Made by a program: the position numbers and the translations under genes. A model generated the notes under the pieces. The model did not search any database and was not told the DNA's origin. It saw nothing but the letters and a program-made list of their open reading frames with translations. Below are positions 1 through 34,568 of a DNA stretch of 37,009 nt, in pieces; position 1 is the first letter of the stretch, and every line of letters begins with the position of its first letter. The DNA is from Chloroflexota bacterium (GTDB lineage Bacteria > Chloroflexota > Dehalococcoidia > Dehalococcoidales > UBA2162), in contig JACQGQ010000037.1 of assembly GCA_016199495.1 (NCBI GenBank), positions 1-37,009 of the forward strand, read 5' to 3'.

Positions 1-41
1 CCCCCTCTCCTTTGAAGGAGAGGGGGACACAGGGGGTGAGG
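1..41. repeat. Nested-palindrome intergenic element, copy R1 (truncated by window start)
   Basis: ccccctctcctt-tg-aaggagaggggg (12-bp perfect arms, 1-26) followed by acacagggggtgagg, the reverse complement of the element terminus cctcaccccctgtgt. Confidence 0.85.
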
Positions 42-2524: not shown

Positions 2525-2956
2525 ATGACCGATAAACCCAGGAAGAGACCAAAGTGTTCCACGTGCGGTAAGTGCTGCCGGGCGCCCGTTATTTTAATTA
2601 CGAAGCCCAGCGACCTCAGGCGATGGGCACAGCAAGGTCGGTCAGATATCCTCCGCTATGCTTCGGTACCTGTACTGCGAGGTTATGGTGACCTCTGGAT
2701 AAGCATCGACGGTAGCGAAGGGTCTGGCTATTGCCCGTTTATTAGGAGAGTTAGTCAGGATAAATTTACCTGCACAATCCAGGATACCAAGCCGAAAGTA
2801 TGTAAAGAATTCTGGTGTGAGTGGACCTACGGGGTTGGGCAGAAAGGAATACCTTTCAAAACTGACCGTGGCTGGACTGACAGAGCCAAGCAATTAGGCT
2901 ATGGGCAGAGCACTAATCGCAGCCGTCAGAATGCTAGTGTTCAGTCTCATAAATAG
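2525..2956 (+). CDS. YkgJ-like cysteine-cluster protein (putative zinc/iron binding)
   Basis: CSTCGKCCRAPV ... CPFIRR ... CTIQDTKPKVCKEFWCEW cysteine pattern. Confidence 0.65.
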   Translation: MTDKPRKRPKCSTCGKCCRAPVILITKPSDLRRWAQQGRSDILRYASVPVLRGYGDLWISIDGSEGSGYCPFIRRVSQDKFTCTIQDTKPKVCKEFWCEWTYGVGQKGIPFKTDRGWTDRAKQLGYGQSTNRSRQNASVQSHK

Positions 2957-2986
2957 CTTTCATCAACAGCTCAAATTATTTACTCA

Positions 2987-3121
2987 CCTCACCCCCTGTG
3001 TCCCCCTCTCCTTGAAAGGAGAGGGGGAAGAGATTTTAGAGAGGGGGCTTCGCCCCCTCTCTTTCTTTTACTCCCCCTTCCCCCGTATTAAATACGGGGG
3101 AAGGGGGCAGGGGGATAGGTT
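2987..3121. repeat. Nested-palindrome intergenic element, copy R2 (complete, about 135 bp)
   Basis: Termini cctcaccccctg ... cagggggataggtta. Internal hairpins: H1 3002-3027 (12-bp arms), H2 3038-3062 (agagagggggc-ttc-gccccctctct), H3 3073-3107 (17-bp perfect arms cccccttcccccgtatt-a-aatacgggggaaggggg). Confidence 0.9.
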
Positions 3122-3262
3122 ACAAACAAGGCATGGCGCCATTTGTGAGTCTGCTCATCACTTTCAGCATTTGTCCACATTGGCATAATTTCAACTTATT
3201 TGCGGGACTAGACACTAGCCACTGATGTCACCTGGTAAATAGCAGATGTCGGGAGCAAGTAA

Positions 3263-7346: not shown

Positions 7347-8081
7347 ATGGCGCTATCATCATCCATAGAATGGACAGATTCTACATGGAATCCTATTACT
7401 GGATGTACCAAAATTAGCTCAGGGTGTGCCAACTGCTATGCTGAGCGCATGGCACTACGCCTAAAAGTAATGGGCAATCCTAATTATACCAATGGCTTTT
7501 CCATCACTTTACACGAAGACGCCTTAGAACTCCCTCTTAAATGGAGAAAACCACAGACTATATTTGTTAATTCCATGAGCGATTTATTCCATGAGAATGT
7601 CCCAGATGAGTTTATTCTTCGAGTGTTCGACATTATGCGACGTGCAGACTGGCATCGTTATCAGATTCTTACTAAGAGGACGGAAAGACTGATGGACATT
7701 AGCCCAAAACTTCCGTGGATGCCACACATCTGGATGGGCGCCACCGTGGAAGCGCAAAATTATATCTATCGTATTGACCACCTCCAGAGAACAAGCGCGA
7801 CTGTTAAGTTTCTATCACTAGAACCTCTGCTCGGCACGATTCCAAATCTGCGTCTCGAAGGAATAGACTGGGTGATTGTTGGAGGTGAGTCTGGGCCAAA
7901 ATCTAGACCTATGAAAAAGTCTTGGGTAATTGATATTCGCAACCAGTGCCAAGAGAAAAAAGTGCTATTTTTCTTTAAGCAATGGGGTGGCATAAACAAA
8001 AAGAGGACAGGGCGAGAGCTTGAGGGTCGCACTTGGGATGAAACACCGCCGTTGTTACCCGTCGCCCCGGTCTTATTATAG
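7347..8081 (+). CDS. DUF5131 / phage Gp37-Gp68 family (three-Cys-motif) protein
   Basis: [36 protein letters not shown]-terminus; [42 protein letters not shown]. Confidence 0.88.
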
Positions 8082-10277
8082 TTGTTCCTCTTCCCCCTCA
8101 CCACTCTCCTCCTCAAGCTGTTCCATAATGCGGGCGGCGCGGGGGTAACCGATGTGCAAGCGCCGCTGCAAGAAGGAGGCGGAGATGTGCTGGTGTTCTC
8201 GCGCCAGTTGCCGGGCGGTCTCCAGGAGTGAGTCCGCCGGATAGCCCCCTTTTCGGGCAGTAGTGCCGGTTGGGGCAAGCTCTTCCAGCTTTAGCGAGGG
8301 CGCCTCTTCCCGCCGCTGACTTCCCCAGAGGTAGACCAGCCTCTCCGCCTCGGCATCAGAGACAAAGCACCCCTGGAGGCGTTTCGGCTTACCCGCCTCG
8401 GTCGGCATGTAGAGCATATCCCCTTTACCCAGGAGCTTCTCAGCACCGCCACCATCGATAATAGTACGTGAGTCTACTTGCGAGGTAACCGCGAAGCTAA
8501 TGCGAGTGGGGAAGTTAGCCTTGATTAAGCCGGTAACAACATCTACTGAGGGGCGTTGGGTCGCTACTACCAGGTGAATACCGACAGCCCGGGATAGCTG
8601 GGCGAGACGGCATAGAATCTGCTCGACCTCATCGCCACCGGACATCATTAAATCAGCCAGTTCATCAATGATGAGTACCATATAGGGCATTTTCTCATCC
8701 CCCTGCCTGGTTTTATTGTAACCCTCAATGTTACGGCTACTGGCGCTAGCCAGTTTTTGATAGCGTTGGTTCATCTCCTGGCTGAGCCAGCGCAGTACCC
8801 CCAGGGCTTTATCGGTATCGACGATAACCGGGACAACCAGATGGGGAATACTATTAAACGTGGTCAGTTCTACCCTCTTGGGGTCAATCATAATAAACTT
8901 AACATCATTAGGCGTATTATAGAGCAGCAGGCAGCAGATAATAGAGTTCAAGCAAACCGTCTTACCACTGCCGGTAGCCCCGGCAACCAGCAGATGCGGC
9001 ATCCTCGCCAGGTCAGCGGTTACCGCCTCACCACCAGCCCCCTTACCCAGTGCCAGAGTTAACTTGGACCTGGCTTGCATTTTCTGAAAAACGCTGGTCT
9101 CGATGACGCCACGCAGGCTGACCATGCTGGAAACGGTATTAGGCACTTCAATGCCGACTACCGATTTACCCGGCACCGGGGCTTCAATCCTGATACTGGA
9201 GGCCGCCAGTGCCAGGGCCAGGTCATTAGCCAGTGAATTGATTCTATCAACCTTAACCCTTGTTTTAGACACCTCTTCCAGCTTTACTTTAACATTGCCG
9301 TCTTTATCTCTCTCTCTTACTTCCTTCGTCTTTCTGTCCCAGCCTGGCTCCACACCGAACTGAGTAACCGTTGGCCCCTCGTTTATCTGCGCCACCTTAG
9401 CCTCAACGCCGTAGCTGGCGAGAGCCTCCTCGATAAGCCGGGCTCGGTGCATATTGTCAGCCTGACTAAACTGGACTTCGGGAGACCTATCTAAAATATC
9501 AATCGGTGGTAACCGCCAACCATCAATAGTAACCAGGTCCGGCGATTCACCATACTTCTTCCATACCTCCTGAGCCACCTGTTTCAGTTCCTTTACCGCC
9601 GGGGCAGAAACGCCCGTTGGGATGGCCGCTTTCCTTTCCGGCTCTATCCGCCGAAGTTCAGGAATCACGGTCACTGAAGGTAGTGACGGCTTTGGCTGGC
9701 GGGCCAGCCCGGGAATCGGCCTCTTTTTAGATTGTTTACCTATCCACCGGATTAACCCGGCCGCCAGACGGAAACTGACCCCGGGGACGACTAAAATAGT
9801 ACCGATAATAACTAACCCCAGTATCCGCAGTATGCCGGTAATATCCGTGTAGCCCACGATACCAAAGCTAAAGCTACCCCCCAGGCTAACCCCCCGGAGA
9901 AGACCCTCTCCGGGAAAATAAGCCAGTACTCCCCAGGCGGCCAGGGTAAAGGCAATACCAGCCAGCCAGTAGTGCCAACGACGTATCATTGAGGCTAGCT
10001 TCTGTAGCCATAGCCCTCCGACCAGAGCGGCCACAGCGCTGATGATAAAGACCAGCCCCCAACCAAACTGCCTCAGCGTATCTTTGATGACACCGCCAGC
10101 CCATGAAGTTAGCGCCGCCCATTGCCAGTATAAGAAGGCTAGAAGGATGGCTCCCAAGGTAACGTACCAGTAGCGGAACGGTGAGAGTAGCATAAAAGGC
10201 AGCAGCCCACTCCCCCACGACCTTCTTTGAGGCTTATCTCTGGATTTACCCTCGTTCTTAGACTTCGTCTTAGCCAT
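8076..10277 (-). CDS. ftsK: DNA translocase FtsK/SpoIIIE
   Basis: Four or more N-terminal TM segments, [19 protein letters not shown] Walker [38 protein letters not shown]-terminal gamma winged helix ([24 protein letters not shown]). Likely start ATG at 10277; the ORF track extends to a GTG at 10307 inside a repeat. Confidence 0.95.
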
Positions 10278-10301
10278 CTTACTCTTTAGATTGTTTACTA
10301 A

Positions 10302-10436
10302 CCTCACCCCCTTTATCCCCCTCTCCTTGTGAAGGAGAGGGGGAAGAGATTTTAGAGAGGGGGCATTGCCCCCTCTCTTACTACACTCCCCCTTCCCCCG
10401 TATTTAATACGGGGGAAGGGGGCAGGGGGATAGGTT
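10302..10436. repeat. Nested-palindrome intergenic element, copy R3
   Basis: cctcaccccctttatccccctctccttgtgaaggagaggggg ... agagagggggcattgccccctctct ... cccccttcccccgtatttaatacgggggaagggggcagggggataggtt. Confidence 0.9.
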
Positions 10437-10493
10437 GCTCAACAATCATCTTCCTAAGTATTGACTTTGCCAAATGTTTCAGTCGTTAATTGG

Positions 10494-13014: not shown

Positions 13015-14259
13015 ATGAAATTTTTAAGCCAAATAGACCCGGAAATCAGCCATGCCCTCGATTTAGAGGCGAAGCGACAAAAGGAAACAGTAAACCTTAT
13101 CGCTTCTGAGAACTATGCCAGCCGGGCTGTGCTTGAAGCTCAAGGCTCGTTTCTAACCAACAAATACGCTGAGGGTTATCCCCGGCGCCGCTACTATGGT
13201 GGTTGTGAAAATATGGATATAGTGGAAACCTTAGCCATCGAGCGGGCAAAAGAGCTGTTCCATGCTGAGCACGCTAATGTCCAGCCGCATAGCGGAACTC
13301 AGGCTAATATGGCAGTATATTATGCCCTATTAGAGTATGGTGATACCGTTATGGGCATGAGCCTGACTCACGGTGGCCATCTTACCCACGGTGATAAAGT
13401 AAGCTTCTCCGGCAAATCATATAATTTTATCCTCTACGGTGTTAACCGGGAAACAGAAAGGATTGACTACCCGGAGCTAGAGAGGCTGGCCTTAAAGCAC
13501 CAGCCCAAGCTGATTGTCGCTGGCGCCAGTGCTTATCCCCGTATTATCGATTTTGAGCGCTTCCGCCATATTGCCGACCTGGTAGGCGCCAAACTCATCG
13601 TTGATATGGCGCACATCGCCGGGATGATAGCTGTCGGTCTACATCCTTCCCCTGTACCCTATGCCGATGTCATAACCTCAACTACCCATAAGACGCTACG
13701 TGGTCCCCGGAGCGGGTTCATTTTATGTCGCCGCCAGTTGGCTGCGGCAATAGATGAGGCTGTCTTTCCCCAAATGCAGGGCGGACCCCTAATGCAGGCC
13801 GTTGCTGCCAAAGCGGTCGCCTTCCACGAAGCGATGCAACCTGACTTCGCCGACTATCAACGTGCCACGCTGGACAACGCCCTTGTTCTGGCCAGTGAAC
13901 TGGAGCGACTAGGGTTACGCCTCATCTCAGGAGGAACAGACAATCACCTGGTTTTGGTCGACCTCAGCGGAAGCGGTGTCACCGGCAAAGAGGCCGAAGA
14001 GGCTCTAGGCAGGGTCGGTATTGTTATTAATCGGAATAGCATTCCTTTTGACCCACGCCCGGCAATAATCACCAGTGGCATCAGACTGGGCACACCGGCG
14101 GTAACTACCCGTGGTTTCGGCAAAGAGGAAATAAGACAGATTGCTTCACTAATTGTCGCAGTAATCGCTAATCCGGACAAGCCCAATATTGAAAAGCAGG
14201 TAAGGCAGGCAGTTAGCCAGATGTGTTCCCGCTTCCCGGTACCCGGGATTGATGACTGA
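13015..14259 (+). CDS. glyA: Serine hydroxymethyltransferase
   Basis: 414 aa; [45 protein letters not shown]-lysine motif; AGGAGG SD. Confidence 0.98.
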
Positions 14260-14270
14260 AATTATTTGAT

Positions 14271-14468
14271 AACCCCATCCCCTGTATCCCCTTCCCCTTG
14301 TTAAGGGGAAGGGGAATTTGTTTGTTTGAGAGAGGCAAAGCCTCTCTCAAACCCTCTCCCAAAAGGCATTACTGCCAAACTGAGTCGTTTAAGAGGGGCT
14401 GACGCCCCTCTTTTTAATATCTTCCCTCTCTCCTTTGAAGGAGAGTGGGATAAAGGGGGTGAGATGGA
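14271..14468. repeat. Nested-palindrome intergenic element, copy R4
   Basis: taaccccatcccctgtatccccttccccttgttaaggggaagggg ... gagagaggcaaagcctctctc ... aagaggggctgacgcccctctt ... ctctcctttgaaggagagtgggataaagggggtgaga. Confidence 0.85.
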
Positions 14469-15467: not shown

Positions 15468-15802
15468 ACCTCACCCCCTTAATCCCCCTCTCCTTGTGAA
15501 GGAGAGGGGGAAATACAGGTTTTGAAGGGGCTTCGCCCCTTCAATCTGCTCCTGATAAAGGGGAAGGGGAGAGACATTAGAAAAGGGGCGCTAGCCCCTC
15601 TGAGACGCCCTGTTAGTCTAAGCTCCCCCGAAGGAAAGGGAGAAGTCCTTCCATGCCATAGTAAGGGTTAGAGAGGGGTAAAGCCCTTTCAGGATTTAGA
15701 AAAGGGATACGGAAGGAGAGTTAAAGAGAGGCTTCGCCTCTCTTATGTAAACCAATGCCCCTTCCCCTTATCAAGGGGAAGGGGATAAAGGGGATGGGGT
15801 TA
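15468..15802. repeat. Nested-palindrome intergenic element, copy R5 (expanded, about 335 bp)
   Basis: cctcacccccttaatccccctctccttgtgaaggagaggggg (H1 15484-15510); ttgaaggggc-ttc-gccccttcaa (15522-15544); agagaggc-ttc-gcctctct (15725-15743); ends ccccttccccttatcaaggggaaggggataaaggggatggggttat. Confidence 0.85.
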
Positions 15803-18624: not shown

Positions 18625-18745
18625 CTTAGCTTGTTTATTAACCCACCCTCCGACCCCCTTACCCAATGTAGTGTCTTATAAGTTCATTGAATAATTCTTC
18701 TCACTTTCCTAAAGGGAGACTGAGAAGGATTTCTCTTTAAGCAGT

Positions 18746-18982
18746 CGTCAAAATCCCCCTTAATCCCCCTTTGGCAAAGGGGGAGACGAAAGAGATTAAA
18801 GCAACTTATTTACGAGACAGACTCCTAGTAGGGAAGGGAAACTCTAAGAGAGGTGAAGCCCCTCTTATATATCCAAAGCCCCTTCTCCTTAAGGGGGAGT
18901 CTGAGAGGGGCTTCGCCCCTCTCAAAAATCACTTTCCCTTCCCCTTAAAAAGGGGAAGGGGATAAAGGGGATAGGGTTATAG
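18746..18982. repeat. Nested-palindrome intergenic element, copy R6 (diverged/mosaic)
   Basis: cccccttaatccccctttggcaaaggggg ... gagaggggcttcgcccctctc ... ccttccccttaaaaaggggaaggggataaaggggatagggttata. Confidence 0.8.
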
Positions 18983-22410: not shown

Positions 22411-22615
22411 TCTATCCCCCTGACCCCCTTCCCAATGGGAAGGGGGAGTAATTATTCTTTGAAGGGGCTGACGCCCCTTCAAACTACCCTCAATGATGGG
22501 TATTAGAGAGGGGCGAAACCCCCAGAATGATAGGGTGTCAAAGAGGGACGAAGTCCCTCTAATATCCTCCTCCCCCTCTCCTTTCTAAGGAGAGGGGGAG
22601 GAAGGGGGTGAGGTC
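22411..22615. repeat. Nested-palindrome intergenic element, copy R7
   Basis: tatccccctgacccccttcccaatgggaaggggg; gaaggggctgacgccccttc; H1 ccccctctcctttctaaggagaggggg (22572-22598); ends aagggggtgaggt. Confidence 0.88.
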
Positions 22616-26550: not shown

Positions 26551-26791
26551 TAACCTCACCCCCTTAATCCCCCTCTCCTTGTGAAGGAGAGGGGGAGGGG
26601 ATTTTTTAGAGAGGCTTCGCCTCTCTTTGCCTCACCTTTACTTAAATCCCTCTCGCTCTCCCTTTCTGAAAGGGAGAAGTTCTCCCCCTTTGGCAAAGGG
26701 GGACTCAGGGGAATTTCCCTCATGGGCTTCGCCCCCTCTCTTATCCATACTCCCCCTTCCCTTAGTAAGGGAAGGGGGTCAGGGGGATGGA
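26551..26791. repeat. Nested-palindrome intergenic element, copy R8 (mosaic)
   Basis: taacctcacccccttaatccccctctccttgtgaaggagaggggg (H1 26569-26595); agagaggc-ttc-gcctctct (26608-26626); ccccctttggcaaaggggg; cccccttcccttagtaagggaagggggtcagggggatgga. Confidence 0.88.
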
Positions 26792-28978: not shown

Positions 28979-29052
28979 TAGTGCCTCCTTCTTGGAGAAA
29001 GTTTAAGAACCTCACTTTCCAGAATCTTATTAGGTAACCCTCCCCATTTGTC

Positions 29053-29071
29053 AGAGAGGCTTCGCCTCTCT
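29053..29071. repeat. Solitary central-hairpin (H2) fragment of the repeat family
   Basis: agagaggc-ttc-gcctctct, identical to the 19-mers inside R5 (15725) and R8 (26608). Confidence 0.75.
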
Positions 29072-29135
29072 TTAACTCTCCTTTAGTACCTACTCTTCAA
29101 AGATAATCCATAATAAAAATCACCTTTATCACAGA

Positions 29136-33526: not shown

Positions 33527-33613
33527 AAAGTATTTCCTTATAAAAAGGCTCCGCCTCTCTTTGACTCTCCTTCAGCCGTCTCTTGATGGCTTTCTGCCGC
33601 TGGGGATTTATTT

Positions 33614-34384: not shown

Positions 34385-34392
34385 TTTCCCAA

Positions 34393-34516
34393 CCTCACCC
34401 CCTGTATCCCCCTCTCCTTCAAAGGAGAGGGGGAAGAGATTTTAGAGAGGGGCGAAGCCCCTCTCTTACTACACTCCCCCTTCCCTTAGTAAGAGAAGGG
34501 GGCGGGGGGATAGGTT
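34393..34516. repeat. Nested-palindrome intergenic element, copy R11
   Basis: cctcaccccctgtatccccctctccttcaaaggagaggggg (H1 34408-34433); agagaggggcgaagcccctctct; cccccttcccttagtaagagaagggggcggggggataggtta. Confidence 0.9.
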
Positions 34517-34568
34517 ACTAAACATTCTCAAGTAGATGTTTCTTTCCCCCGAGAAATCCACTTGATTT

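Follow-up and report, generated by a model that had tools for sequence, protein, structure and literature searches.

A family of hairpin-carrying, MITE-like repeats with 17-bp terminal inverted repeats in Dehalococcoidia

The hairpin repeats that lie between genes in the window, a stretch of 37,009 nt forming contig 21 of a 1.38-Mb MAG (91 contigs, 81% complete), are very probably non-autonomous MITEs that are bounded by a terminal inverted repeat (TIR) designated TIR-A, moved by a transposase acting in trans, and flanked on insertion by a target duplication of about 7 bp. We favor this reading because the elements have defined TIRs and target-site duplications and because an orthologous junction that is occupied here is empty in relatives. 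An earlier note on this DNA had compared the repeats with both MITEs and REP elements; its description of them as MITE-like, non-autonomous, and mobilised agrees with our results, whereas the link to REP sequences and TnpA_REP does not, given the long TIRs and the failure to find a Y1 enzyme.

Copies in the window and their ends

All nine intervals listed in the earlier note were matched by a single hairpin family when the window was searched with a profile HMM (Table 1), which had been trained on 28 copies, a set that the window copies themselves helped to find; repeat finding likewise picked up every interval. Matches were full length at 2986-3120, 10301-10435, and 34392-34515, and the other intervals contain partial or rearranged arrays. 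Thus, the intervals do hold the family, but some of them, such as 15468-15802, are multi-part tracts rather than single copies. Dozens of further sites in the genome, outside the window, also yielded the family. Within the window there is approximately one site per 4 kb, and just 8 of the 1,651 element bases overlap predicted genes, even though the window is 87% coding, in line with the intergenic placement originally proposed. The surrounding genes are mostly housekeeping genes (uvrB, ftsK, rnj, glyA, prs, secA, valS, and coaBC). By UvrB, the closest matches come from MAGs of Dehalococcoidales and of other Dehalococcoidia, which makes placement of the window genome in Dehalococcoidales (Chloroflexota) most likely. 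Lone H2-like hairpins (repeat family D8) were seen outside complete elements at 29046-29085 and 33535-33574.

Table 1. Positions of the hairpin family and associated repeats in the window
Feature	Position	Strand	Evidence
Partial copy cut by window edge: subterminal end and H1 hairpin	1-41	-	HMM, 9.6e-8
TIR-B repeat, 281 bp, enclosing the reported copy	2936-3216	+	Conserved ends in alignment of genome copies
Reported copy, hairpin array H1-H2-H3	2986-3120	+	HMM, 7.9e-36; fold z = -9.9
Complete 163-bp TIR-A element in the rnj (RNase J)-ftsK gap	10287-10449	+	TIR mismatches 2 and 3
Head-to-head pair of partial copies in the glyA (SHMT)-prs gap	14258-14468	.	HMM; TIR-A-like left end at 14258-14274, 3 mismatches
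Head-to-head pair of partial copies with other filler in the prs-secA gap	15468-15802	.	HMM
Degenerate array downstream of secA	18746-18982	-	HMM; TIR-A-like motif at 18627-18643
Degenerate array	22411-22615	-	HMM
Two partial copies in array near valS	26551-26791	+	HMM
Nearly complete copy, right-end TIR-A at 34513-34529 (1 mismatch)	34392-34529	+	HMM; TIR-A scan

The presence of terminal inverted repeats was confirmed, but the ends first assigned to the element proved to be internal. When genome copies were lined up by this inner end, the AT-rich flank was found to be conserved too, and most copies end in a 17-bp TIR, GAGRTYGTTTAGTAACC (TIR-A), which starts 14 bases further out. The genome contains 77 matches to TIR-A at up to 3 mismatches, compared with 1 for the reversed control pattern. 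TIR-A pairs bound elements of 81 to 246 bp that carry no transposase gene, sizes below the limit of about 500 bp that applies to MITEs. In a complete copy, TIR-A is followed by a subterminal repeat rich in G and C (ACCTCACCCCC / GGGGGATAGGT), then by between one and three hairpins, and finally by inverted TIR-A.

Target duplications and an empty orthologous junction

Both target-site duplications and an empty orthologous site, which the earlier note had singled out as checks, were found. The direct repeats flanking TIR-A elements are usually 7 bp long. When lengths of 5 to 9 bp were compared, the duplication signal was strongest at 7 bp, and the left and right 7-mers were alike at 6 or more of 7 positions in 6 of 29 copies (shuffle mean, 0.28; maximum, 3 in 2,000 shuffles). 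The register test for a 7-bp duplication in the window genome gave z = 5.3, a value that does not come from independent data: the length and register were first picked up in a test of 27 elements at several lengths and offsets, and the later set of 29 overlaps with that one. Exact 7-bp duplications in the window genome are GGCAAAT, ATCCTTG, TAATCCA, and TTTTAAC; elsewhere, exact duplications include TTTTAAT (7 bp) in genome G016 and, from further genomes, the 8-bp AATATTTA and the 9-bp TATTCCTCG. The signal is weaker in relatives (z = 2.6; 2 of 26 copies), and most copies have no recognisable duplication. Overall, insertion of the element with target duplication is well supported.

At the rnj-ftsK junction, the window carries a complete TIR-A element, whereas relatives keep ftsK and rnj adjacent, the gap between the aligned coding regions being 3 to 30 bp in 9 of the 12 syntenic relatives inspected. 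Copies are therefore not fixed at all orthologous positions. This empty-site evidence comes from one locus, and at the UvrB identity of about 72 to 84% that these relatives show, alignment does not fix the exact nucleotide of insertion. The element lies between two co-directional genes, with its edge approximately 10 bp before the likely ftsK ATG. The mechanical ORF for ftsK (8076-10307) starts at a GTG at 10307, inside the element region, and the likely start is an ATG near 10277. In another genome (locus L067), a different palindromic repeat occupies the rnj-ftsK junction.

Hairpin modules and a second backbone

The hairpins described in the earlier note are genuine: the stretch 2984-3124 has a folding z-score of -9.9 against dinucleotide shuffles, and in the structure alignment 97% of H1 and H2 cells are paired. 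H1 pairing is preserved through double changes at two pairs in seven sequences, but each double change is common to several sequences, and so the covariation may reflect few events, one per subfamily. Counted by eye, the H2 loop reads CTTCG in approximately 12 of 28 aligned copies and its reverse complement, CGAAG, in approximately 10 of 28. The H3 loop likewise occurs both ways (TTAAA and TTTAA) on the same arms, in L001-L030 and others. It is as if the H2 and H3 loops had been inverted on constant arms.

The interiors of paired TIR-A ends vary in their inner sequence as well as in their number of hairpins. Elements L180 and L182 contain unrelated palindromes of the TGTCATTGCGAGC and GTCATTCCC types, and palindromic repeats of these types were seen within TIR-A elements or beside family copies at L180, L182, L297, and L302. 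In L170, an 84-bp element, there is a single hairpin with an H1-like left arm and an H3-like right arm, which suggests shrinkage by deletion between hairpin arms.

The copy originally reported (2987-3121) is the core of a second, 281-bp repeat whose ends are not TIR-A; these ends, designated TIR-B, read AGTGTTCAGTCTCATAAATAG on the left and, as the reverse complement, AGTGTCTAGTCCCGCAAATA on the right. TIR-B is imperfect, with 16 of 21 bases matching by eye. In the window, a TA borders the repeat at each end, and TA was seen by eye at 8 of 10 ends. Most copies are 88 to 97% alike across their aligned parts, and several are located at contig ends. The TIR-B right end was not found outside the window genome in a search of 60 relatives. 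The last codons of a window ORF encoding a CxxCxxCC-domain protein (2525-2956) are supplied by the TIR-B repeat.

Mobilisation and rival explanations

As the earlier note had said, what mobilises the family is not visible: the window genome and the relatives searched yielded no transposase gene bounded by TIR-A. Searches of the 81%-complete window genome for DDE_Tnp_1, IS256, IS630, and IS982 transposases were negative, and in relatives none of the transposase loci was convincingly bracketed by TIR-A. TIR-A pairs 0.3 to 3.5 kb apart, considered as a possible autonomous partner, enclosed nothing that made a convincing transposon; in relatives, the ORFs next to TIR-A ends resembled host genes, judged by eye alone.

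Multiple strong hairpins, intergenic location, and high copy number would also be expected of REP/BIME-like repeats mobilised by a RAYT (Y1, TnpA_REP) through recognition of the hairpins. We regard this explanation as improbable. A Y1 transposase (PF01797) was not found in the 81%-complete window genome, although the same search was positive in 5 of 14 control genomes, and the elements end in 17-bp TIRs beside 7-bp target duplications, which Y1 enzymes are not known to make. Instead of a 20- to 40-bp palindrome with a GTAG or CGTC tag, complete copies are TIR-bounded elements within the size range given above, and no such tag was noted by eye at the ends of the copies shown. Similarly improbable is the suggestion that the repeats are host-selected regulatory elements, chiefly bidirectional transcription terminators at gene ends. 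The element hairpins are the strongest terminator-like matches in the first 20 kb of the window, and H1 pairing survives double changes, but these may represent one event per subfamily, a long T run is missing from most hairpins, the target duplications show insertion, and the rnj-ftsK copy, itself between co-directional genes, is not shared by most relatives. Judged from sequence, the prominence of element hairpins among terminator-like matches nevertheless makes secondary effects on transcription plausible. Far less credible still, and already contradicted, is the idea that these are unrelated GC-rich low-complexity tracts, alike only by composition. The hairpin arms are indeed composed of C/T and A/G runs, but the 14-mer CTCCCCCTCTCCTT occurs 13 times with at most 1 mismatch versus 0.04 expected, the TIRs are AT-rich and of fixed sequence, and family alignments span 130 bp at up to 92% identity.

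Under the favored MITE reading, a trans-acting transposase would recognise both TIR-A ends and place the element between genes, with a target duplication of about 7 bp; the enzyme would probably be of the DDE type, acting in trans by cut and paste. The hairpins would be passive cargo, sometimes also working as transcription terminators, and inner modules would be lost or swapped while the TIRs stay. Hairpin arrays can also ride inside the second repeat, with its TIR-B ends. A broader proposal, which we consider rather unlikely, is that of a class-wide, long-lived MITE lineage with a transposase outside the familiar insertion-sequence families and with hairpin cargo exchanged between at least two backbones, TIR-A and TIR-B.

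Correia elements of Neisseria resemble the present family in being short, TIR-bounded, and present in tens to hundreds of copies, but they differ in their TIR and in their target duplication, which is TA. MITEs that vary in length but keep their TIRs have been described in prokaryotes before (PMC10969869), as have REP families (PMC3733652). As summarised in PMC10969869, the Chunjie MITE of Geobacter uraniireducens is similarly intergenic, with conserved TIRs and direct repeats, variable length, and many decayed partial copies; the likeness is one of description, and host and size differ. In the same summary, QMITE1/QMITE2 of Coxiella burnetii grade, as here, from complete elements down to REP-like remnants that lack TIRs, whereas the core of the present family is a string of GC-rich hairpins that is present inside a second backbone too. 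REP/BIME sequences with RAYT (PMC3733652) share the hairpins, intergenic location, and mosaic arrays, but here there are long TIRs and 7-bp target duplications, and no RAYT was found. One survey gives a palindrome count for Dehalococcoides mccartyi (PMC12306157). The element had no match in Rfam or among phage and plasmid records, and no description of it was found in the open-access literature, most subscription papers lying outside the search. On this basis, we class the hairpin repeats as a new MITE family.

With one copy as the BLAST query, the family was detected in 40 of 61 genomes. A covariance model of the head module, applied to a class-wide sample of 148 genomes, gave matches in 68 of them, with counts per genome limited by the number of candidates scored. 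TIR-A flanks the head module in other genera as well, and by eye some distant copies show TIR-A-like left ends and shortened right ends. Among the genomes listed for two genera of one family (f9), which are at least 99% complete, there are from none to four head-module matches; these may be the cultured genera Dehalococcoides and Dehalogenimonas. Several MAG contigs end inside copies, and the repeats therefore probably break assemblies. In the largely uncultured Dehalococcoidia, these repeats seem to form an abundant mobile family, one that interrupts tight gene junctions, rnj-ftsK among them, and carries along ready-made hairpins that, by their predicted structure, could end transcription.
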